A stretch of 64,000 bases of DNA, taken from an uncultured bacterium. Its GTDB lineage: Bacteria > Bacillota_I > Bacilli_A > RFN20 > CAG-826. The notes under the pieces were generated by a model. It did not search any database and was not told the origin of the DNA. It saw nothing but the letters and a program-made list of their open reading frames with translations. The DNA lies in NCBI GenBank assembly GCA_949290395.1, contig CASERQ010000001.1:124001-188000 (forward strand). Reading direction: 5' to 3'. Numbering within the stretch: position 1 is the stretch's first letter; every line of letters begins with the position of its first letter. This document shows, piece after piece, positions 39,969 through 51,019 of this stretch. A program made the translations under genes and the position numbers.

Positions 39969-39984
39969 GTTAATTATTACTAAC
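39969..39984. promoter_or_regulatory. Metalloregulator-type palindrome upstream of mntP
   Basis: GTTAAT-TATT-ACTAAC differs by one base from GTTAGT-N4-ACTAAC, the form found before the ECF locus and the DtxR/MntR-like gene. It lies 30-45 bases before the mntP start, after the proS stop. Confidence 0.55.
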
Positions 39985-40024
39985 TCATAGTAAAGGTTTA
40001 AAATCCTTTTACTATGAGTTTTTT
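39982..40024 (+). terminator. Terminator-like hairpin enclosing the mntP start codon
   Basis: AACTCATAGTAAAGG (39982-39996) pairs with CCTTTTACTATGAGTT (40005-40020) with one bulged base, loop 8, followed by six T (40019-40024). It would terminate proS transcription. The right arm contains ATGAG, the first codons of mntP (ATG 40014), so an mRNA with this hairpin hides the start. Confidence 0.75.
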
Positions 40025-40622
40025 AGAAAGTCTTGTTTTATCAATAACCATGGCAGCTGATGCAATGTGTGTTGGCGCAAGCGATGGTATAAAAGAATAT
40101 AATATTAAAATAACAAAATGCTTAGTAATTGCTTTAGCTTTCGGCTTTGCTCAATTTTTAATGCCTTTAATAGGTTATTTTGTTGGCTTTGCTATTTATG
40201 AATACATAAAAGTAGCGATACCTTGGATTGCTTTCTCTGTTTTGCTTTTGCTTGGCGTTAAATCTATTTGGGAGGGTATTAAAAAGTTTAAGGAAAGAAA
40301 GAAACAAAAAGAAGATGAAGAAAAAGTAGGCGAAACAATTATTAAAGTAAAACCTTTTGAAATTTTTGTTCAAAGCATTGCAACCTCAATTGATGCGCTC
40401 TCAGTTGGCTTTTCACTAGTTGGCGTTTTAAATGTAATTTCAGAGGCAATTATTGTTTTTGTAATAATTGGCATAGTTACATTCTTATTAACATTTTTAA
40501 CTACCTTTTTTGGAAAACAAATTGGGAAATACGTTGAAAAATATGCCCCATTTATTAGTGGCTTAATTTTTGTTGCTCTAGCTATTAAGTTCTTAGTTGA
40601 TGCAATCAAGCTTATAATTTAA
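40014..40622 (+). CDS. mntP: Manganese efflux pump MntP family
   Basis: A 202-residue six-helix membrane protein of the MntP (DUF204) family, exporting Mn2+. Family motifs are the N-terminal ITMAADAMCVGASDG (about 11-25) and the repeated half ATSIDALSVGFSLVG (about 123-137), whose Asp residues are thought to bind metal. The lysine/glutamate-rich loop between halves is as expected. The start follows from the MSFLES... reading, although ATG 40014 lies in the right arm of a terminator-like hairpin and has no ribosome site. A DtxR/MntR-type palindrome at 39969 suggests metal control, as known for mntP genes elsewhere. Family call good; Mn specificity from family knowledge. Confidence 0.88.
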   Translation: MSFLESLVLSITMAADAMCVGASDGIKEYNIKITKCLVIALAFGFAQFLMPLIGYFVGFAIYEYIKVAIPWIAFSVLLLLGVKSIWEGIKKFKERKKQKEDEEKVGETIIKVKPFEIFVQSIATSIDALSVGFSLVGVLNVISEAIIVFVIIGIVTFLLTFLTTFFGKQIGKYVEKYAPFISGLIFVALAIKFLVDAIKLII

Positions 40623-40634
40623 TGAATGCAAAAT

Positions 40635-40657
40635 CCTTTATTATGATAAAATAAAGG
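40635..40657. promoter_or_regulatory. Inverted repeat over the -10 box of the 40662 gene
   Basis: CCTTTATT (40635-40642), 7-base centre, AATAAAGG (40650-40657). TGATAAAAT (extended -10; TAAAAT at 40647-40652) lies within, and the ATG is 9 bases after it with no ribosome site. Preceding TGCAAAATCC resembles the dispersed TGCAAAA element. Confidence 0.45.
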
Positions 40658-40661
40658 CGTA

Positions 40662-41621
40662 ATGAATAAAGATAAAAACGTACCATTTACACTTGAAGAA
40701 GAGAAAAAACTTGCAAAACCACGCTATTTAGCAAATTTTTTTCCTCTCTTTTTGATACTTGGATTCTTTATGGGGTTTGGTGGTTTTGTAGTTTTATTAA
40801 TTGGTCTTGTTCAGATAGAAGAAAATTTAATCTTAGTTTATATAGGTTCGCCTCTTCTTGTGGTTGGAATCTTTTTGTTTGTGCTAGCTTTTTTAACACA
40901 AAGCATTAATAAAAAAGTATATGAAAAAATGTGTTATCGACTATTAAAAGATAATTTTAAAAACTGTGATATTACTCTTTTAGATTTTTCAAAAAAGAGA
41001 AATACTTTTTTGAAGGACGCAAACATAATTAATGTAAAAGTCGACAGTCTAAATAAAGAGAACTTTTTACTTAAAAAGGTAAATACTGAAATTGAAGTTT
41101 ATAACGTCGAAAAATCTACAGCGCAAGAGACAAGTCAAAGTTTTTTAAATGATTTATTCACTGTGTCAAGTAATGCTGTGGTTGGGGAAAAGAAACTGGA
41201 TCTCTCTCTTAGCTTTAAAGGTGTAGTCCTTAAAGTTTGTAAGACAAAATTTAATTTATCTAATCCGATTGAGATTAGAACTCATTCGGCTAATTTTGGT
41301 GCATCAATGAATTTTGACGAGAGCAATCTTTTAAAGTTAAAAGATTACTTTGGAAAATTGTTTGATGTTTACGTTGCAAGAGACAGATTCTATGAATTAC
41401 TCACTGAAGAGTTAAAAGAAGCTTTAATTAAGTTTTCTAACACTAAGTTATCTCTGCTTTTAATTATCAAAAATTCTGAGGCTTATATATTGATTAAAGA
41501 TTTAAGTGTCGCTCCTCATACTTTATTAAGAAGAGATGATAAAAAAATATACGAAGCTTTCTCAAAATATTCCCATATTTATTTTTTAATAGATCAAATT
41601 ATTGATAGTTTAATTAGTTAA
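40662..41621 (+). CDS. DUF3137-like membrane protein, first of a tandem pair
   Basis: A 319-residue protein with two N-terminal membrane helices (about 27-52 and 60-83) and a long soluble part. The next gene has the same layout, so the pair looks like an old tandem duplication, though the two have diverged strongly. Similarity to DUF3137 is weaker here than in the neighbour. Possible hallmarks are the block LSLSFKGVVLKVCK (about 180-193) and the order helix pair, soluble beta/alpha domain, C-terminal LSVAPHTLLR. Function unknown. It starts from a leaderless-type promoter and is 2 bases from the next gene, so they are co-transcribed. Confidence 0.55.
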   Translation: MNKDKNVPFTLEEEKKLAKPRYLANFFPLFLILGFFMGFGGFVVLLIGLVQIEENLILVYIGSPLLVVGIFLFVLAFLTQSINKKVYEKMCYRLLKDNFKNCDITLLDFSKKRNTFLKDANIINVKVDSLNKENFLLKKVNTEIEVYNVEKSTAQETSQSFLNDLFTVSSNAVVGEKKLDLSLSFKGVVLKVCKTKFNLSNPIEIRTHSANFGASMNFDESNLLKLKDYFGKLFDVYVARDRFYELLTEELKEALIKFSNTKLSLLLIIKNSEAYILIKDLSVAPHTLLRRDDKKIYEAFSKYSHIYFLIDQIIDSLIS

Positions 41622-41623
41622 TT

Positions 41624-42628
41624 ATGAAAAAGATTTATACTAAAGAAGAGATTGATGCTTTACCTGATTCATTTAAACTTTCAAATGGCACAAAAATTTT
41701 AATTGTTTTTATGATTGTTCTTTTTGTGCTTGGTTTAAGTGGAATAGTTGTTGGGTCAATTTTTATCGCTTTATATGGCGCAGTAGAATGGGTAATTCTT
41801 ATTACTTTCGCTGTGATGGGTTTGATTTTTTCTTTAATGTCTCCAATTTTTGTTAATGTAGATAAAAGTAAAAACAAAAAAATAAAGATTGAATTGATAC
41901 ATCAAGCATTAAATGAAGTTTTTAATGGCAAAGTTATTTATGACCCAATAAGTAGAATAAATTCTGCTTTTTTAAAAGAGACTGATATTTGTCCTTTTTT
42001 AGTTAAAGGAAGTGGTGAAAAAATAATCGTCCAAAAGGGAAAGCAAAGCGTTTCAATATTGGAAATTGAAAGTCTTTCCAATATGGATGATCTTATTAGT
42101 TTTCTTTTAGCCGCTCCAGAACTTGGTGTTGTTGGTTCAGCTTTTTTAGGAACAGCCAGTTTGATTAGTAAGATTGCTGATAAAAGTATTGCTAGTTCTA
42201 AGTTTAAAGGAACTGTGATGGTTTTCCCTAACTTGAGCAAAAAAATTAATAGTATTGTAGAAGTGAGAAGTAAAAAGTTCTTAACCCCACTTTCTAGCTT
42301 GTTAAATTCTAAAGATAAATTTGAGACTGAATCGATAAAGGTTAACGAAAAATACAATTTTTATGCAACGAATCCTCAAGATGGTTTTGAAATTATTAAG
42401 CCGACAATGATTGAAGTGATTGATAAAGTAGATGAAACTTTAAAGAATGGATTTGTAATGGTTTTTAAAGAAGACTATATGATTATTGGGTTTAGTGAAA
42501 AGAAAATAATCATTAAAGATTTAATTAAAAACAATAATGTGATGGCTAAAAAAGCCTATTACGATGTTAAAAATTCACTTAATAAATATGAAAATATAGT
42601 TGATTTATTTACTTATTTATTCAAATAA
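41624..42628 (+). CDS. DUF3137-like membrane protein, second of a tandem pair
   Basis: A 334-residue protein with two N-terminal helices (about 24-50 and 53-76), then a soluble part. The stretch SKFKGTVMVFPNL (about 190-202), KDKFETESIKVNEKYNFYATNP (about 229-250, shown in part) and IIKPTMIEVIDKVDE, then a hydrophobic VMVFKEDYMIIGF, follow the DUF3137 pattern (FKGr...fEkeFkVy...iLtp.mme.l). Members often occur near LemA proteins; no lemA is here. Function unknown. It is translated just after its tandem neighbour. The ECF/ABC locus follows after an operator-rich gap. Confidence 0.6.
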   Translation: MKKIYTKEEIDALPDSFKLSNGTKILIVFMIVLFVLGLSGIVVGSIFIALYGAVEWVILITFAVMGLIFSLMSPIFVNVDKSKNKKIKIELIHQALNEVFNGKVIYDPISRINSAFLKETDICPFLVKGSGEKIIVQKGKQSVSILEIESLSNMDDLISFLLAAPELGVVGSAFLGTASLISKIADKSIASSKFKGTVMVFPNLSKKINSIVEVRSKKFLTPLSSLLNSKDKFETESIKVNEKYNFYATNPQDGFEIIKPTMIEVIDKVDETLKNGFVMVFKEDYMIIGFSEKKIIIKDLIKNNNVMAKKAYYDVKNSLNKYENIVDLFTYLFK

Positions 42629-42629
42629 A

Positions 42630-42660
42630 CCTGCAAAAGTTCAATTAATTTTAATTTTTG
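42630..42660 (+). repeat. Dispersed intergenic element, copy 3
   Basis: CCTGCAAAAGTTCAATTA directly after the stop of the DUF3137-like gene, a shorter-C version of the copies at 6405 and 36433, followed by T-rich sequence. Confidence 0.35.
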
Positions 42661-42691
42661 TTCGTTTTAAACGCTTTAAGTGGTTAATATA

Positions 42692-42707
42692 GTTAGTTAG
42701 TACTAAT
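42692..42707. promoter_or_regulatory. Metalloregulator-type palindrome, ECF locus site 1
   Basis: GTTAGT-TAGT-ACTAAT matches GTTAGT-N4-ACTAA(C/T). Next to it, GTTTGA-CTTA-ACTAAC (42712-42727) is a weaker copy with a damaged left half. They lie 60-75 bases before the first gene of the ABC/ECF operon. Confidence 0.6.
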
Positions 42708-42747
42708 TTTAGTTTGACTTAACTAACTACTTTTAATATGATTATAA

Positions 42748-42763
42748 GTTAGTGAATACTAAT
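42748..42763. promoter_or_regulatory. Metalloregulator-type palindrome, ECF locus site 2
   Basis: GTTAGT-GAAT-ACTAAT, same form as site 1, ending 4 bases before the ATG at 42768 and overlapping any -10 there. A repressor bound here would block transcription. Confidence 0.6.
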
Positions 42764-42767
42764 TTAT

Positions 42768-43112
42768 ATGAATTTAAGCAAAGAGAAAGAAATTGAAGTT
42801 GTCGAACTAATGATTAGGAAGTTCTGTAAAAAGAAACACAAACACAAAAAGGGAGAGTTATGCCCTGAATGTGTAGAACTTTTAGAATACGTAAAATACC
42901 GCAGATCTTTGTGTCCTTGGAAAACTAATAAACCATTTTGTTCTAATTGCAAGATTCATTGTTATAAACCTGAAATGAGAGAAAAGATTAGAGAAGTCAT
43001 GAGATTTAGTGGTCCAAGAATGATTTTTACTAATCCAATTTTAGCTATTTCTCATGTTATTGAAACAAAAAGAGAAAAAAGCAAACTTTCAAGAAAAGAG
43101 GGCAAAAAGTGA
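42768..43112 (+). CDS. YgbA_NO-type (nitrous oxide-stimulated promoter) family protein
   Basis: A 114-residue Cys/His-rich protein. It has the family pattern: VELMIRKFCKKKH, ELCPECVELLEYVKYRRSLCP, CSNCKIHCYKPEMREKIREVMRFSGPRM and a hydrophobic ISHV end. The spaced CxxC/CP/CxxCxxHC sets suggest bound metal, probably zinc or an iron-sulfur centre. The family was named from an E. coli gene induced by nitrogen oxides; its molecular role is not established. Here it heads the operon of two ABC half-transporters and an ECF transporter and has metalloregulator-type operators at its promoter, so a metal or nitrosative stress link is plausible. Confidence 0.75.
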   Translation: MNLSKEKEIEVVELMIRKFCKKKHKHKKGELCPECVELLEYVKYRRSLCPWKTNKPFCSNCKIHCYKPEMREKIREVMRFSGPRMIFTNPILAISHVIETKREKSKLSRKEGKK

Positions 43113-44857
43113 TAGATATTGAACTATTTAAACTTATAGGAAAGAACAAAAAATATATTTTTATAGTTGTACTTTTAATGGTATTGTCTTTAGCTTTTAC
43201 TTTGGGAATAACATCAACAATTTGTGCAACGCTATATGTTGCTTTAAATAATCTTGAAAGTATTAATTATCTTTATCTTGCTATTGCTGCAATAGTTTTT
43301 TTAGATGGTAAATTTTTAATTACATATATTGTTGGAAAATTAAAAGACAAAATTGGTAGAGAAGTTAAAAAAGATATAAGAAGTAGAACTTATAACAAGA
43401 TTCTTAAACTTGGAACAAGGAGTCATGGGGACGTCAAGTTAGCTGGGTTGACTCAGATTTCTGTTGAAGGAATTGAACAACTCGACCTTTATTATTCAAT
43501 TTATTTACCACAATTTTTTTATTCTCTTTTAGCTCCAATTATCCTATTTATTTTAACTTCCTTTATTTCTTTTAATGTTTCAATTGTTTTACTTTGTTGT
43601 GTTCCTTTAATTCCAATATCAATAGTTTTGGTCAGCAAATACGCTAAAAAAATATTTGCAAAATATTGGGGAAAATATATTTCAATGGGCGATAGTTTTT
43701 TAGATACAATCCAAGGTCTTAAAGAATTAAAACTTTATAAAGCTGATGAGGCTTACGAAAAGAAGATGCTTGATAAAAGTGAAGAATTTAGAAAAATTAC
43801 AATGAAAGTTTTAATCATGCAACTTGCTTCAACAACTATTATGGATCTTGTTGCTTTTGGTGGGGCTGGAATTGGTGTATCAATTGCGTTGAGTGAAGCT
43901 ATTAATGGAACTTTAACTCCTATTTCCGCTTTATTTTTAATGCTAATTGCTGTTGAATTTTTCTTGCCTTTAAGAAGTTTAGGAAGTGCATTCCATGTTG
44001 CGATGAATGGAGTAAGTGCTGGTAAAAAAATCATGACTTTATTAAAAGAAAAAGAAACTTCTTGGGGTGATAAAGCTTTTGAAGGCGGAGATATTGCCTT
44101 TAAAAATGTTTCTTTTAAATACGAAGATGGTAATAAATTTGTGCTTTCAAATGTTAATTTGAACTTTGAGTCAAACAAATTTACAGCAATCGTTGGGGTT
44201 TCTGGAAGTGGCAAATCCACAATTGTAAGTTTACTTACAAGACAGAACTTAGAGACAAGTGGTGAAGTATTAGCGAATAATCATAAAATTGAAGATTATT
44301 CTAGAGAATCCTTTTATAAAAATTTTGTTGTGTTAAGTTCCAATACTTATGTTTTTAACGACACCATCAGAAATAATTTTAAAATGGCTAATGAAAATGT
44401 AAGCGATGAAGAAATAATTAAAGCTTTAAAAGAAGTGAAACTTGAAAACTTAGTTAGCCAAGAAAAAGGACTAGACAGCATTATTAATGAAGATGCAAAC
44501 AATATATCCGGAGGAGAAAAGCAGAGACTTGCTTTAGCGATAAATTTAACGCAAGAAAAGAAAATTTATATTTTTGATGAAGCAACTTCAAACATCGATA
44601 TTGAAAGTGAGGCCATCATTATGAAAAAAGTTGGCGAACTTTCAAAAGATCATACTGTAATTTTGATTTCACATCGTTTAGAAAATGTTAAAAATGCCGA
44701 TAAAATTTACTTTCTTGAAAATGGAAGAATTATTGAGGAAGGCAATCATAAAAAATTAATTAACCAAAATGGTGCATATTCTAAACTTTATAAAACCCAA
44801 AAAGATTTAGAAAACGCTTATAAAGATATTCATGAGGTATTAACTTATGCAAAATAG
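43109..44857 (+). CDS. ABC transporter half (exporter fold), first of a pair, SiaD/CydD-like
   Basis: A 582-residue half-transporter: six membrane helices (about 1-300) then an ATPase. Walker A GVSGSGKSTIV (about 365-375), ABC signature ISGGEKQRL (about 467-475), Walker B IFDEATSNID (about 487-496) and the H-loop SHRLENV are intact. Start is GTG 43109 overlapping the previous stop (GTGA). With the next gene it makes a heterodimer, followed directly by a complete ECF transporter. Automatic pipelines might call it CydD (thiol exporter), but no cydAB is seen. In Streptococcus siaDE precede siaFGH in a heme operon, a better match to this gene order. Some exporter-fold pairs import siderophores. 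Confidence 0.8.
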   Translation: MIDIELFKLIGKNKKYIFIVVLLMVLSLAFTLGITSTICATLYVALNNLESINYLYLAIAAIVFLDGKFLITYIVGKLKDKIGREVKKDIRSRTYNKILKLGTRSHGDVKLAGLTQISVEGIEQLDLYYSIYLPQFFYSLLAPIILFILTSFISFNVSIVLLCCVPLIPISIVLVSKYAKKIFAKYWGKYISMGDSFLDTIQGLKELKLYKADEAYEKKMLDKSEEFRKITMKVLIMQLASTTIMDLVAFGGAGIGVSIALSEAINGTLTPISALFLMLIAVEFFLPLRSLGSAFHVAMNGVSAGKKIMTLLKEKETSWGDKAFEGGDIAFKNVSFKYEDGNKFVLSNVNLNFESNKFTAIVGVSGSGKSTIVSLLTRQNLETSGEVLANNHKIEDYSRESFYKNFVVLSSNTYVFNDTIRNNFKMANENVSDEEIIKALKEVKLENLVSQEKGLDSIINEDANNISGGEKQRLALAINLTQEKKIYIFDEATSNIDIESEAIIMKKVGELSKDHTVILISHRLENVKNADKIYFLENGRIIEEGNHKKLINQNGAYSKLYKTQKDLENAYKDIHEVLTYAK

Positions 44858-46532
44858 TTTAAAAAGAGGTGGTCTTTTAATAATTGCCAAACTTATATCT
44901 TTATTAGGTGGTTTTGGAGTAGTAATTATTCTTGCAGTACTTAATGGATATCTTGGTTTTATTAGTTCAATGTCTGTAACTCTTTTTGGAGCTCTTGGCA
45001 TTGCTAAGTTACTTGGCGCCGATATTGCTATGAGTTATGAAGTAATTATTACTTTAGTAGTTCTATCGGGGGTTTTAAGAGGTGTATTGCGTTATTTTGA
45101 ACAATATTCTAATCATTATATTGCTTTCAAACTTTTAGAGATTATTAGGGTGAAAGTCTTTCATAAACTCAGAGAACTTGTTCCTGCAAAATTAGAAGGA
45201 AAACAAAAGGGCGATTTAATCTCGATGCTTACGGCAGGCATAGAAACTTTAGAGGTTTTTTACGCTCATACAATTTCACCATCTTTAATAGCTTTTTTAG
45301 TTTCGTTAACTGTAATTTTATTTGTTGGATTTTTCTCAAGCTGGTATTTGGCTTTATTAGCCTTTCTTGGATATGTAATAGTTGGTATTATCCTCCCATT
45401 ATTCTTTTTTAAAGTAGTTAAAAAAGAAGGCAGAGAATATAGAAAATCGCTTGCTGATTTTAATTCGTATTTTCTAGATTCGATTAAAGGAATTAAAGAG
45501 ATTGTCTTTCATAATAATGAAATAGAAAGGGAAGAAAAAGTTTCTCAAAAAAGTGAAAACCTTCTAAAAACTACAAAAAATATTAAAAACAAAGTTTCAG
45601 CTTCTAGCGCAATTACAGATTTAACTGTTACTTTATTTATCCTTTTATCTTTAATTTTAGGTGTTGTTCTTTATGTTAATGAACTTCTTGAATTTGGATC
45701 AATGCTTGTTGGTGTTGTTGCAATTTTTGGAAGTTTTGGGCCTGTTCTTGCTTTAGCTAACCTTCCATCAAACTTAACACAAACTTTTGCTAGCGGAGAT
45801 AGAGTTTTAGATTTACTTGAAGAAGAACCTCTAGTCTTAGAAATTAAAGACAAAAATGATATTACCTTTAATAGTCTTGAGGTTAAAAATTTAAGTTTTG
45901 GCTATAACAACAATGATCCTATTTTAGAGAATGTTAATTTTTCTGTTAAAAAAGGAGAAATTGTTGGAATTGTGGGGCCTAGTGGAAGTGGGAAATCAAC
46001 GATTTTAAATCTCTTGCTTAGAGTCTATCAAAAAAATAGTGGCGAAATACTTTTTGATGGGCAAGAAATTGAAGAGATTAATAGTAAATCTTTGTTAGAG
46101 AACGTCACTCTTGTTAGTCAATCTACTTATTTATTTAACGAATCAATAATGGAAAATATTAAAGTTTCAAAATTAAATGCAACTTCTAAAGAAGTTGTTG
46201 AAGCTACGAGTAAAGCAAATATTCATTCTTATATCGAATCACTAGAAAATGGATATAAAACCGAAGTCAAAGTAATGGGTGATAATCTTTCAAGTGGGGA
46301 AAAACAAAGAATTGGAATCTCTAGAGCATTTTTAAAGAACTCCCCTTTAATTCTTTTAGATGAACCAACAAGCAATGTTGATTCAATGAATGAAGGAATT
46401 ATTCTTAGTTCCATTAAGGAAGCAAAAAAAGATCACGCTATAATCCTTGTTTCCCATAGGGAATCAACAATGGCGATAGCAGATAGAATTTATAGATTTG
46501 ATAAAAAAACACTTAGCGAGGTGAAAAAATGA
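44847..46532 (+). CDS. ABC transporter half (exporter fold), second of a pair, SiaE/CydC-like
   Basis: A 561-residue half-transporter overlapping the first by 11 bases. Six helices fill about 1-310. The ATPase has Walker A GPSGSGKSTILNLL (about 377-390), signature LSSGEKQRIGIS (about 478-489), Walker B ILLDEPTSNVD (about 499-509) and H-loop SHRESTMA. A slightly changed H-loop neighbour (SHRES) is unremarkable. The ATPase looks competent, so the pair is a two-site heterodimer. The S component follows after a 4-base overlap (ATGA), so translation is coupled. Substrate unknown; see the first half for alternatives. Confidence 0.8.
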   Translation: MQNSLKRGGLLIIAKLISLLGGFGVVIILAVLNGYLGFISSMSVTLFGALGIAKLLGADIAMSYEVIITLVVLSGVLRGVLRYFEQYSNHYIAFKLLEIIRVKVFHKLRELVPAKLEGKQKGDLISMLTAGIETLEVFYAHTISPSLIAFLVSLTVILFVGFFSSWYLALLAFLGYVIVGIILPLFFFKVVKKEGREYRKSLADFNSYFLDSIKGIKEIVFHNNEIEREEKVSQKSENLLKTTKNIKNKVSASSAITDLTVTLFILLSLILGVVLYVNELLEFGSMLVGVVAIFGSFGPVLALANLPSNLTQTFASGDRVLDLLEEEPLVLEIKDKNDITFNSLEVKNLSFGYNNNDPILENVNFSVKKGEIVGIVGPSGSGKSTILNLLLRVYQKNSGEILFDGQEIEEINSKSLLENVTLVSQSTYLFNESIMENIKVSKLNATSKEVVEATSKANIHSYIESLENGYKTEVKVMGDNLSSGEKQRIGISRAFLKNSPLILLDEPTSNVDSMNEGIILSSIKEAKKDHAIILVSHRESTMAIADRIYRFDKKTLSEVKK

Positions 46533-47227
46533 GCGAACAAGAGAAGAACATTGAAGAACTAATTGCCGATCTTGATAGTAATCAAAAAGTCGAAATTAAA
46601 GAGGAACCAAAAAAACTCAAAAAGAAAGCAGCAAAACAATCTAAAGTAGAAGACGAAAACAAGATTTTTCAAAAATATAAAATCAAAGATATTGTCTTTC
46701 TTGCAATAATTTCGGCAATCATGCTTTTAACTGGTGCGTTTATGCCACTTGTCTCTAATATTCCTATTTTTGGAATTATTGAAATTTGCCTTGGTTTACA
46801 ATTTTCACTTTTTCCAGCAATTGGAATGATGAAGGTTAGAAAGCCTGGAGCCTTATTATTTATGGCTTTTTTCAGTGGCATTGTCTTAATTTTCATGAAT
46901 ACAATCATGTTCTTTTGCTTACTTTTGTGCGCACTAATTTGTGAAGTTTTAGTTCTTGTTATTTTTAGAGGTTATAAATCAAACCTTGCTAGTTGGCTTG
47001 CTGGAACTTTATATATGCCTCTTACTCTCCCTTTCCTCTATGTTTGGTATTCGTTCTTCTATACATTTACTGGTGAAGAAGGCGAAGCAGTGAGTGCATT
47101 TATTGGTAGTGATCCATGGATGGCTGTTGGGATGAGCGTTGCTGTAGTTTGTTTATGCGCACTAGGATCTTTGGGTGGCGTTTTAATAGCAAAAGAATTA
47201 AAGAAAGCTGGAGTAATAAAGAAGTAA
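46529..47227 (+). CDS. ECF transporter S component, MptD/Trep_Strep-like
   Basis: A 232-residue membrane protein with a charged N-terminal tail (residues 1-50, Lys/Glu rich) and six helices between about 53 and 225. The pattern FLAIISAIMLLTGAFMPLV, IFGIIEICLGLQFSLFPAIGM and LFMAFFSGIVLIFMNT follows the Trep_Strep/MptD S-component family rather than a biotin, riboflavin or thiamine type. S components bind the substrate and toggle in the membrane with the T and A modules. It is followed at once by T and A genes. In S. pyogenes this family member (SiaF, as I recall) belongs to an ECF heme importer. Substrate here is inferred, not shown. Confidence 0.8.
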   Translation: MSEQEKNIEELIADLDSNQKVEIKEEPKKLKKKAAKQSKVEDENKIFQKYKIKDIVFLAIISAIMLLTGAFMPLVSNIPIFGIIEICLGLQFSLFPAIGMMKVRKPGALLFMAFFSGIVLIFMNTIMFFCLLLCALICEVLVLVIFRGYKSNLASWLAGTLYMPLTLPFLYVWYSFFYTFTGEEGEAVSAFIGSDPWMAVGMSVAVVCLCALGSLGGVLIAKELKKAGVIKK

Positions 47228-47905
47228 ATGGACTTTTTAAGATATAAATATAATAATTTATATCCAGTTTTTGCGATCTTTTCTGGATTATTAATATGTA
47301 TTTTTGCACTCGTTTATGCAAATCACGTTGAGTGTTTATACTTTTTAATATCAGTTTATTTGTTTTCGTTTTTCTTTATTGATTATAAGAAGTGTATAAA
47401 GGTTTTACTTTTTAGTTTTGTGCTAGGTGCAATATTTTTTGTGGTTGCCTTTTTAGTTTCTGGCGTCTATGAACAAGGCATTTTTATGGTAAATAGAATA
47501 TTGGCTTTTTCGATTGGAATGCTACCTGGCGTTAGTATAGGCGCAGAAAGACTTGCAAGAAATTTATCTAGCTTAAGAGCCCCAAGATCATTAACTATTG
47601 GCATGTTAATTGCTTTTTCTTTTATGCCAATACTTGCTAAAGAAGTAAAAAGAGTAAAGGAAGCAATGAAGACTAGAGGTAGTTTTAACTTTTTAAATCC
47701 TAAAATTATATATCGCGCTTTTTTAATTCCTTTTATAACAAGAATTGTCGATATCAGCGATACCTTATCTTTAAGCATTGAAACAAGAGGTTTTTCTTTA
47801 GAAGATAAAAATTACACTGTTTATAAAAAGGAACATTTAAGAATTTTTGATTTTATTTACTTTGTAGGAATAGTTTTAGCAATGGTTTTGGTGATTGTTT
47901 TATGA
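47228..47905 (+). CDS. ECF transporter T component
   Basis: A 225-residue membrane protein of the EcfT (CbiQ-like) family. Five or so helices: the first pair at about 12-60, then about 65-110 and 200-222. The coupling helices carry the sequence SFMPILAKEVKRVKEAMKTRGSF (about 135-157), which has the Ala/Arg-Gly pattern that docks on the ATPases. It starts immediately after the S component stop (no gap) and overlaps the A gene by ATGA. Dedicated T genes next to one S component suggest a group I ECF unit, not a shared module. Confidence 0.87.
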   Translation: MDFLRYKYNNLYPVFAIFSGLLICIFALVYANHVECLYFLISVYLFSFFFIDYKKCIKVLLFSFVLGAIFFVVAFLVSGVYEQGIFMVNRILAFSIGMLPGVSIGAERLARNLSSLRAPRSLTIGMLIAFSFMPILAKEVKRVKEAMKTRGSFNFLNPKIIYRAFLIPFITRIVDISDTLSLSIETRGFSLEDKNYTVYKKEHLRIFDFIYFVGIVLAMVLVIVL

Positions 47906-49314
47906 GTAGTGTAATCGATGTAAAAGATTTAAGTTTTAAATACGAAGATGATGTTATCTTAGAAAATATTAATTTTTCTATCAATAAAGGCGAATTCGTC
48001 CTTTTTTCTGGTCCAAGTGGTCAAGGGAAATCGACCTTGATCTATCTACTTTGCGGAATAATTCCTCATATTATTTATGGTAAAGCTAAAGGAGAGATTC
48101 TTGTAAACGGCGAAAATATTTTAGATAAAAAAGTTGCTGAAATTTCTAAAGAAATTGGAATAACTCTTCAAAATGCTGAAAATCAAATTATTCAAAAATA
48201 TGTTGAAGATGAATTAGCATTTGGAGCTGAAAACATTGGCTTAAAGAAAGAACAAATTAAGAAGCAACTAGAGACAATTTCTAAAATTTTTAAGCTTAAC
48301 TTGAAAGATGAATGTAGAACACTTTCCGGCGGACAAAAACAAAAATTAATTACTGGCTCAACTTTAATGATGGGTCAAAAAATTATTGTTCTTGATGAAC
48401 CTTTAGCAAATTTGGATAAAACCTCATCCATTGAACTAATCAAAATTTTAAAAGGATTAACTAAAGCAGGATTTACTATTTTGATTGCCGAACACAGGCT
48501 TGATTTTTTAATGTCTAGTGCAGATAGAGTTTTTAAAGTAAGCGATAAAAAATGCGTTGAGATCTATGATTTTTCAACTTTTATTAAAGATGAATTGAAT
48601 CAAATAAGTGTTAAAAAGAGAGAAAAACCTTGCAAAAACTTATTATTTTCTCTAAAAAATGTAAGTTTCAAAGTTGGAAAGCAATCCATATTAAATGATA
48701 TTAATTTAGATATTTATGCCGGCGAGAAGGTTTTGTTGTTAGGAGAAAATGGTGCTGGTAAAACTACTCTTTTAAGAATACTTGCAAGATTGAATAAAAT
48801 TAAGGAAGGAGAATTTAATACTTTTGTAATTTATAAAAACAAAACAATTAAAAGAGCAAACAAGCACTGGTTTAAAAAAGTTGGAGTGGTCTATCAAAAT
48901 CCTAATTATCAGCTTTTTATGAAAACTGTTTTTGATGAAATAAATTTTCAAGCTTACTCACCAGAATATCGAGATTATATTATCTCTTTATTTAATTTAG
49001 AGAATCTTTTAACAAGACATCCTCAATCCTTATCTGAAGGACAAAAACGTAAAGTTACAATTGCAGCCATTCTTGCAATGAAACCTGAAGTTTTGCTTCT
49101 TGATGAACCAACAGTTGGTCAAGATTTTGATTCTTTGAAAAATCTAATAGAAATTCTAGAAACAATTCATAAAGAAACAAATAATACGATGATTTCTATT
49201 ACCCATGATGCTAGATGTGCAAATGCTTTATGCGAAAAGAGCATATATATAAAGGATAAGACAATTTCAGAGATTGGTTCTGAAGAATTAGTTAATAAGT
49301 TCTTTAATCTTTAA
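47902..49314 (+). CDS. ECF transporter A component, two fused ATPase domains
   Basis: A 470-residue protein with two ABC ATPase domains in one chain. First: Walker A GPSGQGKSTLIYLL (about 35-48), signature LSGGQKQKL (about 140-148), Walker B IIVLDEPLANLD (about 160-171). Second: GENGAGKTTLLRIL (about 286-299), signature LSEGQKRKV (about 375-383), Walker B LLLDEPTVGQD (about 397-407). The fused A1-A2 form replaces the usual separate EcfA1/EcfA2. It powers the S/T pair encoded just before. It ends at a strong terminator. Confidence 0.9.
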   Translation: MSSVIDVKDLSFKYEDDVILENINFSINKGEFVLFSGPSGQGKSTLIYLLCGIIPHIIYGKAKGEILVNGENILDKKVAEISKEIGITLQNAENQIIQKYVEDELAFGAENIGLKKEQIKKQLETISKIFKLNLKDECRTLSGGQKQKLITGSTLMMGQKIIVLDEPLANLDKTSSIELIKILKGLTKAGFTILIAEHRLDFLMSSADRVFKVSDKKCVEIYDFSTFIKDELNQISVKKREKPCKNLLFSLKNVSFKVGKQSILNDINLDIYAGEKVLLLGENGAGKTTLLRILARLNKIKEGEFNTFVIYKNKTIKRANKHWFKKVGVVYQNPNYQLFMKTVFDEINFQAYSPEYRDYIISLFNLENLLTRHPQSLSEGQKRKVTIAAILAMKPEVLLLDEPTVGQDFDSLKNLIEILETIHKETNNTMISITHDARCANALCEKSIYIKDKTISEIGSEELVNKFFNL

Positions 49315-49318
49315 AATT

Positions 49319-49350
49319 AAAAAATGGCTTTTTCAGGAAGCCATTTTTTA
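49319..49350 (+). terminator. Terminator of the ABC/ECF operon
   Basis: AAAAAATGGCTT (49319-49330), 7-base loop, AAGCCATTTTTT (49338-49349). Perfect 12-bp stem with T-rich end, 5 bases after the stop. Confidence 0.9.
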
Positions 49351-49420
49351 AATAGATAATTCTATAAATAGTAATTTAATAGATAAGGAGAATTAAGGAT
49401 AGGATAATTAAATTACTATG

Positions 49421-49436
49421 GTTAGTATAAACTAAC
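49421..49436. promoter_or_regulatory. Metalloregulator-type palindrome upstream of a tiny ORF and lipoprotein
   Basis: GTTAGT-ATAA-ACTAAC is the most perfect copy of this palindrome in the window. TATAAA at 49426-49431, inside it, could be a -10 for the tiny ORF at 49446. It is 94 bases before the lipoprotein gene. Confidence 0.65.
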
Positions 49437-49445
49437 TATTTATAT

Positions 49446-49484
49446 ATGGCAAGGAAAACGATAAAAGAATATGATGTTTTTTAA
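49446..49484 (+). CDS. Possible 12-residue leader ORF (MARKTIKEYDVF)
   Basis: ATG 49446 to TAA 49482-49484 encodes 12 residues directly downstream of the palindrome at 49421, with the TATAAA box 14 bases before it and no ribosome site. It could be a leader peptide, the head of a lost gene, or chance. No family is recognised. Low confidence that it is translated. Confidence 0.25.
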   Translation: MARKTIKEYDVF

Positions 49485-49529
49485 TTTAATCTATGTGCTA
49501 ATATATTTACATAAAAAGGAATAAAAAAT

Positions 49530-50558
49530 ATGAAGAAAAAATTTATTAAAGCTCTTGCTTTAGGCTTTCTCGTTTTTGGGTTGGTTGGTTGTGAAAATGA
49601 TGGACCAGAAATAATAGATCCAGATCCAACAGTTGATGATACTCCAAATGATGACAAACCAAATGATGATAAACCATCAACAGATGAAGAAGATCCTGAG
49701 GAGACTCCAGAGCCTGAAGAGGAAAAGTTTGAAATTCAACTTAAAGATAATGGATTAACAGTTGGACAAGAACTTTATGAATTTAGTGCTGGAAATAAGG
49801 AAGAAACTTATGTTCCAAGCTTTGAAATAACTATCAATACTGATAATAGTTGGAATCTTGTTACTGGTATCTATAAAGACAGAGTGGAACTTAAAGCTGA
49901 GGATGAAAAAGTAGTTCCTAAAGAAGCGCTTAGTTATTCTATCGTTAAAAACTCCGATCTTGTTGGTGCAAGTGGAAGTAACGAAATTGAACGATTTAAA
50001 ATTAGAATTGACAGAAGTTTGATTTCAAGCGGCGAAACAAAGATCAAATTCGTTGTTCAACCATCAAATGGCAGTTCTAGTGTTAGTAAACTTACAACAA
50101 TATGTTTTGGTGTAAAAGTTCATGAATATGGAACCATGCCAATCGAAACTTGTAACCTTAATTTTACTTTAGATTTAACTGAATTCTATGAGGTTTTACC
50201 TCAAATTGTAGATCCAAAAAGCGCAACTTTCTCCCTTACCGATAATGATGATGAACTCTTCTATGGATATGATTATGATGCTAGATATAACTTCGAAATT
50301 CCTTTTGATGTTCATCTTAACGAAATAAAAATAGAAAATCTAAAAGTTGCTAAAGACCATTCCTATAATGTCCAAATTTTTGTCGAAGCGGAAGAAACTG
50401 AAAATAGAACATGGTTCTATATGGATAGAGATAGAGGAAATTCAGACTATGAAATCGAAGTTGAAGGCAGGTCTTCAACATTAATAGTTTATGATGATGC
50501 AACTGTCGAAGCAAAAATTGGTGACCATTACTCTCTCAAAGATATACGTGGGTATTAG
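49530..50558 (+). CDS. Lipoprotein, unknown function
   Basis: A 342-residue secreted lipoprotein. Signal peptide residues 1-20 with lipobox LVGC and Cys21. A low-complexity Asp/Pro/Glu/Thr linker (about 24-68) tethers a C-terminal domain of about 270 residues that looks beta-rich (EIQLKDNGLTVGQELYEFS, LVTGIYKDRVELKAEDEKV). No catalytic motif is seen. AAGGAATAAAAAAT before the ATG is a fair ribosome site, and TGCTAATAT at 49496-49504 a possible extended -10. Its position between a metalloregulator-type palindrome and the regulator gene suggests it may take part in metal or heme capture, but this is speculation. Confidence 0.7.
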   Translation: MKKKFIKALALGFLVFGLVGCENDGPEIIDPDPTVDDTPNDDKPNDDKPSTDEEDPEETPEPEEEKFEIQLKDNGLTVGQELYEFSAGNKEETYVPSFEITINTDNSWNLVTGIYKDRVELKAEDEKVVPKEALSYSIVKNSDLVGASGSNEIERFKIRIDRSLISSGETKIKFVVQPSNGSSSVSKLTTICFGVKVHEYGTMPIETCNLNFTLDLTEFYEVLPQIVDPKSATFSLTDNDDELFYGYDYDARYNFEIPFDVHLNEIKIENLKVAKDHSYNVQIFVEAEETENRTWFYMDRDRGNSDYEIEVEGRSSTLIVYDDATVEAKIGDHYSLKDIRGY

Positions 50559-50591
50559 ACACATTATTTGAACTATTTTAACGCTTGTGAT

Positions 50592-50640
50592 TTGCCTATT
50601 TTTTAATAAACAAGTATTATATAAGTTAGTTTTAACAAAC
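50592..50640 (+). promoter_or_regulatory. Promoter and operator of the DtxR/MntR-like gene
   Basis: TTGCCT (50592-50597), 17-base spacer, TATTAT (50615-50620). Immediately after lies GTTAGT-TTTA-ACAAAC (50625-50640), one base from the palindrome seen at other sites. This layout suits autorepression. GAGG at 50644-50647 is the ribosome site. Confidence 0.65.
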
Positions 50641-50653
50641 AACGAGGTATTTT

Positions 50654-51019
50654 ATGAAAAATAACCAATCACTTGAAGACTACTTAGAGAGAATATTAAT
50701 TTTGAAAAATAAAAAAGGCAATGTAAGATCGATTGACTTAGCTCATGATATGAATTTTAGTAAACCTTCCATTTCGATAGCTATGAAAAAGTTAGAGGAA
50801 AAAGGTCTTGTTATCGTAAACAAAGATAATGGTTTCCTTGAACTTACTAAAGAAGGTTTAGCGATAGCTACTAAAACTTATGAGAAACACTGTACGCTTC
50901 GCGATTTATTTATATCAATTGGGGTTAGTCCTGAAGTAGCTAGCGAAGATGCTTGTAAAATTGAGCATGATTTAAGCGATGAAACATTTGATTGCTTAAG
51001 AAAATATCTTAATAAATAA
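50654..51019 (+). CDS. DtxR/MntR-family metal-dependent transcriptional regulator
   Basis: A 121-residue protein with the N-terminal winged helix (SLEDYLERILILKNKKG..., helix-turn-helix near VRSIDLAHDMNFSKPSISIAMKKLEEKG, residues 22-49, shown in part) and the dimerisation helices with the family motif EHDLSDETFDCLRKYL (about 103-118), preceded by VASEDACKIE. In the family this segment holds metal ligands such as Cys/Glu and His. It lacks the SH3-like third domain, as in short MntR proteins. It probably represses metal-uptake genes and may activate efflux when Mn2+ or Fe2+ is high. Palindromes matching its own promoter occur before mntP and the ABC/ECF locus. Confidence 0.85.
   Translation: MKNNQSLEDYLERILILKNKKGNVRSIDLAHDMNFSKPSISIAMKKLEEKGLVIVNKDNGFLELTKEGLAIATKTYEKHCTLRDLFISIGVSPEVASEDACKIEHDLSDETFDCLRKYLNK

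Follow-up and report, generated by a model that had tools for sequence, protein, structure and literature searches.

A palindrome shared by metal-linked genes accompanies a short DtxR-family regulator, probably of iron, in an uncultured bacterium of the Bacilli

We analyzed a stretch of 64,000 nucleotides (the window; contig CASERQ010000001.1, positions 124,001 to 188,000) from an uncultured bacterium of the RFN20 lineage of the Bacilli_A. Near-copies of one 16-bp palindrome, GTTAGTN4ACTAAC, stand in it before a manganese efflux gene (mntP), before an operon that begins with ygbA and encodes ATP-binding cassette (ABC) and energy-coupling factor (ECF) transporter proteins, before a lipoprotein-like gene, and before the gene at 50654 for a DtxR-family regulator (here dtxR). 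Judged from comparison with related genomes, the palindromes are very probably landing sites of the repressor encoded beside them. The effector is most likely Fe(II) rather than Mn(II), so that MntR is the less likely label, and the circuit is mainly an iron regulon of a known type, partly local, to which mntP may have been attached in this lineage. Taken whole, the model of a two-domain, Fe(II)-activated DtxR repressor of an iron regulon, with mntP as a possible secondary member, seems to us quite likely to be correct.

Near-perfect palindromes in the window

The copies in the window, with mismatches counted against the consensus GTTAGTN4ACTAAC, are as follows.

39969-39984, no strand: degenerate operator-like site GTTAATTATTACTAAC, 1 mismatch; 29 bp separates it from the mntP start
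42692-42707, no strand: putative operator GTTAGTTAGTACTAAT, 1 mismatch; immediately 5' of the -35 of the ygbA operon
42712-42727, no strand: weak putative operator GTTTGACTTAACTAAC, 2 mismatches; overlaps the ygbA -35 hexamer
42748-42763, no strand: putative operator GTTAGTGAATACTAAT, 1 mismatch; 5 bp past the -10, at the expected transcription start
49421-49436, no strand: perfect putative operator GTTAGTATAAACTAAC, 0 mismatches; in the ancestral dtxR promoter block, with the lipoprotein gene now downstream
50625-50640, no strand: putative operator GTTAGTTTTAACAAAC, 1 mismatch; begins 4 bp past the dtxR -10

An earlier note on this DNA had reported five palindromes and a weaker copy at 42712, and all of them are present in the window sequence. 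The perfect copy and the four with one mismatch are all intergenic and lie within the locus, compared with 0.0 and 0.1 copies, respectively, expected per 64 kb under an order-2 Markov model of the window. At two or three mismatches there is no meaningful excess in the window (31 found, 32 expected), so that the claim for these sites leans on the near-perfect copies.

The motif accompanies the regulator gene in relatives

We searched 59 related genomes, 52 of which carry an orthologue of the regulator (G013 is uninformative on this point, as its contig stops inside ecfA), and compared 29 orthologue loci and 80 further loci, mostly from Clostridia, all picked by protein and not by motif. The counts in these loci, which were not chosen from the window, are our strongest evidence. 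In the orthologue loci, GTTAGT forms the commonest perfect 6-4-6 palindrome, with 16 copies in 13 loci (runner-up, 4 copies), and GTTAG-Nx-CTAAC occurs 25 times at x = 6 but at most once at each other spacing from 0 to 13. In the mostly clostridial loci, GTTAG-N6-CTAAC occurs 39 times, while other spacings occur 0 to 2 times except for six copies at x = 10, and the control gives 0; the two commonest palindromes are those of GTTAGT and GTTAGC. Many relatives carry sites upstream of dtxR. Thus the proposed tie between the shared palindrome, as a regulatory site, and the gene at 50654 holds up in both sets of loci. Since the preference for x = 6 recurs around the 80 homologues, GTTAG-N6-CTAAC is a putative operator of the whole DtxR subfamily. 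The six copies of GTTAG-N10-CTAAC, found in clostridial dtxR loci (L207, L231, L253, L257), are perhaps two overlapping half sites.

Target genes across relatives and in the same genome

Across the 59 genomes the exact palindrome occurs 57 times, against 8 for the reversed control. Fifty of the 56 exact sites outside the window are intergenic and 26 adjoin feoA or feoB; the remaining ones precede dtxR, the ygbA-ABC operon, ZIP transporters, and genes for pyruvate:ferredoxin oxidoreductase (PFOR), HoxE/NuoE, ferredoxin and NrdI. We recognised no Mn importer among the conserved targets across these relatives. At one locus (L117, 3549-4320), nrdI and a ferredoxin gene diverge from an intergenic gap that holds a single perfect site, an arrangement expected of an iron-sparing switch; at another (L084), a cation-efflux (CDF) gene bears a one-mismatch site.

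The organism's own genome (1.37 Mb) was scanned by pattern, and the stretches around matches were then examined. At 0 to 1 mismatch, six of eight sites are intergenic: five in the 10.7-kb stretch that spans the palindromes of the window and one before a tetR-ABC operon, with two more inside genes. At two mismatches, 35 of 41 sites fall within genes and only two intergenic sites are clearly informative, one before feoAAB and one at 42712. With up to two mismatches the pattern gives 49 matches, against 86 for the reversed control, and GTTAGN6CTAAC yields no additional exact site in this genome (2, against 3 for the control). The motif is thus weak within one genome, and its strength derives from the relatives. 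The two intragenic one-mismatch matches (in a permease-like gene and ldh, both named by eye) were considered as operators and taken as chance.

These distant sites also show that the regulon is not purely local, as had been supposed. An exact palindrome lies 61 bp 5' of the tetR-ABC operon on contig C8 (G000:C8:50673-51724; L078/L283), where the contig end interrupts the operon; in relatives G002 and G010 its arms are kept at the same distance and the spacers differ. FeoB is encoded on contig C1 in a feoA-feoA-feoB operon, where GTTAGTTATATTTAAC lies 10 bp past a 12/12 promoter (TTGACA-16-TATAAT). Together with the iron-type targets of the relatives, the feoAAB and tetR-ABC sites therefore indicate mainly an iron regulon that is only partly local. 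A CDF gene lies immediately 5' of feoAAB on the same strand (L010, 1675-2853).

A regulator with a hybrid metal site

The regulator, the sole member of its family in the genome, has a winged-helix domain and a metal-binding/dimerisation domain within 121 amino acids, without an SH3 domain. Its place in the DtxR/MntR family follows from both Pfam domains scoring above the gathering cut-off, from metal ligands at the conserved positions, and from its fold: the top PDB matches of the AlphaFold2 model (predicted local distance difference test, pLDDT, 92.9) are MntR, then IdeR/DtxR. The predicted ligands, obtained by alignment to MntR and the ligand list in PMC4805248, are D9, E12, H79, C101, E104 and H105, and H79, C101, E104 and H105 are invariant across 30 orthologues. 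Asp9 occupies the MntR Asp8 position and Cys101 the DtxR Cys102 position, which makes the metal site a hybrid. From the Mn-specific ligand set of MntR, Asp is retained but Glu99 is replaced by Cys101, and the scores against the NCBIfam MntR equivalogs (84.6 and 63 bits) stay far below the cut-offs (153 and 138). From the DtxR/IdeR combination of Met10, Cys102 and SH3, Cys is retained but Met is replaced by Asp and there is no third domain. What the regulator does share with the DtxR/IdeR type is a regulon of iron-acquisition genes, since in relatives the palindrome precedes feoAB and genes for iron-sulfur proteins, and with the EqbA type the operator GTTAG-N6-CTAAC. Fe(II) would be the likelier effector because the targets in relatives are iron genes and the predicted metal site joins an Fe-type Cys to a Mn-type Asp. 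The earlier MntR-like label is the less likely one on this comparison, given the iron genes among the conserved targets and a Cys in place of MntR Glu99 in all 30 orthologues.

Promoter architecture at ygbA and dtxR

Two promoters place the sites.

42714-42742, + strand: sigma-70 type promoter TTGACT-17-TATGAT of the ygbA-ABC-ECF operon, 10/12 consensus; conserved in close relative G001
50592-50620: dtxR promoter TTGCCT-17-TATTAT, assigned by promoter match

The ygbA promoter is bracketed by three sites, one upstream of the -35, one over it, and one at the expected start. G001 keeps this triple site with steps of 20 and 38 bp (20 and 36 bp here), although the sequence has diverged. At dtxR, the position of the 50625 site just past the -10 bears out the claim of a site in the regulator's own promoter. 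The layout at both promoters suggests repressor architecture. That the sites lie in gaps next to promoters is true of 42692, 42712 and 42748 and of 50625, where promoters were found; at mntP, the + strand gave no sigma-70 match scoring 9/12 or better. In relatives (L086, L089, L114, L128), two sites that share a feo-dtxR or operon promoter are often separated by 57-58 bp, close to the 56 bp between those at 42692 and 42748.

The perfect site at 49421 appears to have a different history. It falls in a block (49380-49440) that can be aligned both to the ecfA-dtxR gap of G001 and to the h2-dtxR gap of G011. On this alignment 49421 marks the ancestral dtxR promoter, with the lipoprotein gene inserted behind it; the palindrome is then not the lipoprotein gene's own operator, contrary to what had been proposed. 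Homologues of the lipoprotein in G011, G013 and G045 are located elsewhere, and we found no sites near those of G011 and G013. The lipoprotein had been a candidate for a conserved regulon member and was rejected on the alignment and these site-less homologues.

The mntP site

The site before mntP is the weakest of the sites, being degenerate and, as far as the sequences compared indicate, conserved in four close species only. The other three (G001, G013 and G025) carry ATTAGTN4TCTAAC, with two mismatches, in the corresponding position. The proS-mntP gap has otherwise diverged among the four species, and TTAnT-N5-CTAAC ranks with its best-conserved parts. No site was found in G011 or in nearly all other mntP loci examined (30 upstream regions). 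In G009 and G015 (L079, L080), mntP lies immediately 5' of dtxR on the same strand, and no palindrome with two or fewer mismatches was found between the genes or just before them. A search of the window and of 20 mntP loci revealed neither a Mn riboswitch nor another Rfam RNA before mntP. Thus the proposal that the regulator ties metal efflux to uptake stands in so far as mntP has a site, and is weakened in that this degenerate site of four close species is its sole basis; a functional link is plausible. The regulator may repress mntP when iron is bound, or may activate it from a weak site at the -35, by analogy with mneP of Bacillus subtilis.

A strong hairpin is predicted at 39980-40024 (-17.2 kcal/mol, z -3.5); it takes in the start codon of mntP and has a T6 run after it. 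By eye, G013 and G025 form a different stem at this place. The hairpin may be the proS terminator and the mntP mRNA leaderless, and a TAnAAT element lies 7-9 nt 5' of the start in the four species.

Genes of the locus

The genes that surround the sites are the following.

38529: proS, by Pfam
40014-40622, + strand: mntP, manganese efflux pump family (Pfam Mntp, E 3.5e-36)
42768-43112, + strand: ygbA, YgbA_NO family, first gene of the operon (Pfam PF11756, E 2.4e-40)
43109-44857, + strand: type IV (exporter-fold) ABC half-transporter, permease-ATPase fusion (Pfam ABC_membrane and ABC_tran)
44847-46532, + strand: second type IV ABC half-transporter, permease-ATPase fusion (Pfam ABC_membrane and ABC_tran)
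46529-47227, + strand: ECF S component, Trep_Strep/MptD family (Pfam PF09605, E 3.2e-7)
47228-47905, + strand: ECF T component, CbiQ family (Pfam PF02361, E 1.1e-13)
47902-49314, + strand: ECF ATPase with two fused ATPase domains (Pfam ABC_tran, 2 stretches)
49530-50558, + strand: lipoprotein-like protein, no Pfam or NCBIfam match
50654-51019, + strand: DtxR-family metalloregulator, 121 amino acids (Pfam Fe_dep_repress and Fe_dep_repr_C above cut-off)

The ABC pair was compared by sequence with a view to kinship with the siderophore importers YbtPQ/IrtAB. The 60 PDB matches listed by phmmer belong to type IV exporters in general (P-gp, MsbA), and its best NCBIfam matches, CydD/CydC, are below cut-off; a search of the ECF S component against PDB gave no match. 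Two adjacent proteins of 319 and 334 amino acids with apparent membrane segments are encoded at 40662-42628, the second matching DUF3137; close relatives retain this pair between mntP and the ygbA operon or dtxR.

Discussion

The circuit at this locus seems real and of a known kind, most likely the control of iron by a short DtxR protein. The literature on this motif in DtxR proteins of Firmicutes yielded only EqbA of Streptococcus equi ICESe2. This DtxR-like protein lacks SH3 and has Cys104, and its gel-shift operator contains GTTAGATGTATCTAAC, that is GTTAG-N6-CTAAC; its DNA binding is enhanced by Fe2+ and Zn2+ and less by Mn2+, and its locus combines fused permease-ATPase ABC genes with an ABC importer required for iron uptake (PMC3672683). 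Compared by published description, our system resembles EqbA in the missing SH3, the Cys at the DtxR C102 position, the operator and the fused ABC genes. It differs in that EqbA has Asn in place of Asp9 and a longer, 36-bp operator palindrome, and the EqbA locus makes a siderophore, whereas we saw no genes for siderophore synthesis in the stretch analyzed. The 19-bp IdeR box TTAGGTTAGSCTAACCTAA presents one CCTAA per monomer, and a single dimer is able to occupy a half site (PMC8464063). Because this box contains the unit TTAG-N6-CTAA, the palindrome can be read, by analogy, as a single-dimer DtxR site. The regulator shares the equivalents of Cys102, Glu105 and His106 with DtxR/IdeR but lacks SH3 and has Asp for Met10, and its sites resemble single-dimer sites, not the overlapping two-dimer box. 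B. subtilis MntR, which likewise controls metal genes, matches the regulator in the two-domain fold and in the equivalents of Asp8, Glu11, His77, Glu102 and His103, but has Glu99 where the regulator has Cys, and its target genes are different. The heme transporter LhaSTA of S. lugdunensis, likened here by description, is also an iron-regulated ECF transporter, but bears a Fur box (PMC7299338).

Could the metal nevertheless be manganese? If the regulator were an MntR, it would sense Mn(II), repress the ABC/ECF genes as a Mn uptake system, and activate or derepress the mntP exporter. The closest folds and sequence matches are indeed MntR proteins, an Asp stands at the position of MntR Asp8, mntP has a site and is the neighbor of dtxR in G009 and G015, and in B. 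subtilis a weak MntR site over the -35 contributes to mneP activation (PMC11275975). We consider this improbable, however: the Cys replaces the MntR Glu99 in every orthologue, the conserved targets are feoAB, PFOR, ferredoxin, hydrogenase and NrdI with no Mn importer recognised among them, and most of the 30 mntP upstream regions have no site. A dual-metal regulator, in which iron represses uptake through the strong sites while the weak mntP site answers a higher metal load and activates export of Mn (or Fe/Mn), is a less remote idea that we still regard as unlikely. PgMntR of Porphyromonas gingivalis, which binds Fe(II) and Mn(II) (PMC4805248), has the same Asp/Cys/Glu/His metal set, although it differs in having two FeoA domains, absent here; the contrast between strong sites elsewhere and a weak one at mntP, and the cooperative weak-site activation known for MntR, would also suit it. 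Yet mntP has a single weak site and no promoter match by which to place it, whereas activation of mneP needs an array of four (PMC11275975).

That the palindromes are operators of some other factor, such as a Fur-family protein or TetR, with dtxR nearby by accident, is highly improbable. The genome has a Fur-family gene and one perfect site precedes a tetR gene, but across Bacilli and Clostridia the motif goes with orthologues of dtxR, its TTAG/CTAA arms are those typical of DtxR-family sites and it shares arms and spacing with the EqbA operator, and close TetR orthologues are absent from most motif-bearing genomes. Three points nonetheless weigh against a Fe(II)-activated DtxR repressor as we describe it. 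The feoAAB site of this genome has two mismatches, the level at which most matches in the genome are chance; the single Fur-family gene could be the main iron regulator; and the hybrid Asp/Cys site may leave room for Mn sensing, since the Porphyromonas protein with that ligand set binds both metals.

For the mntP part alone, it is a real possibility, if somewhat the less probable one, that the site is a chance remnant and mntP lies outside the regulator's control. The single mismatch here becomes two in G001, G013 and G025, G011 and nearly all other mntP loci examined have no site, and the predicted hairpin with its T run overlaps the mntP start; the conservation of TTAnT-N5-CTAAC in a diverged gap of four species argues the other way.

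In the iron-repressor model that we favor, the product of the gene at 50654 would be a two-domain DtxR-family repressor activated by Fe(II), and one iron-bound dimer would occupy each GTTAG-N6-CTAAC palindrome. The sites lie around the -35 or just past the -10 of ygbA-ABC-ECF, feoAAB and dtxR, and shortly before tetR-ABC; given these positions at promoters, the dimer would block RNA polymerase as long as iron is abundant. Once iron drops, the repressor would leave the DNA, and Feo ferrous uptake, the ABC/ECF transporter (whose iron-linked substrate and direction we infer) and the repressor itself would be expressed. The mntP gene, whose degenerate site occurs here and in three close relatives, may belong to the regulon in a secondary role.

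These results provide both a putative consensus for the operator and a list of targets in a DtxR subfamily that is common in uncultured gut bacteria and whose nearest database names are MntR, so that iron regulons become predictable in many genomes. The natural Asp/Cys hybrid site offers a clean test case for which metal is sensed. More tentatively, and with more doubt than confidence on our part, the short DtxR proteins with this hybrid site, a large and little-studied subfamily, might hold the leading part in iron regulation in many Bacilli and Clostridia of the gut, acting through the single-dimer GTTAG-N6-CTAAC, with mntP drawn into the iron regulon here so that iron starvation (or metal load) sets the Mn level. 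If the mntP link is true, it would amount to simple Fe/Mn cross-control through one repressor.

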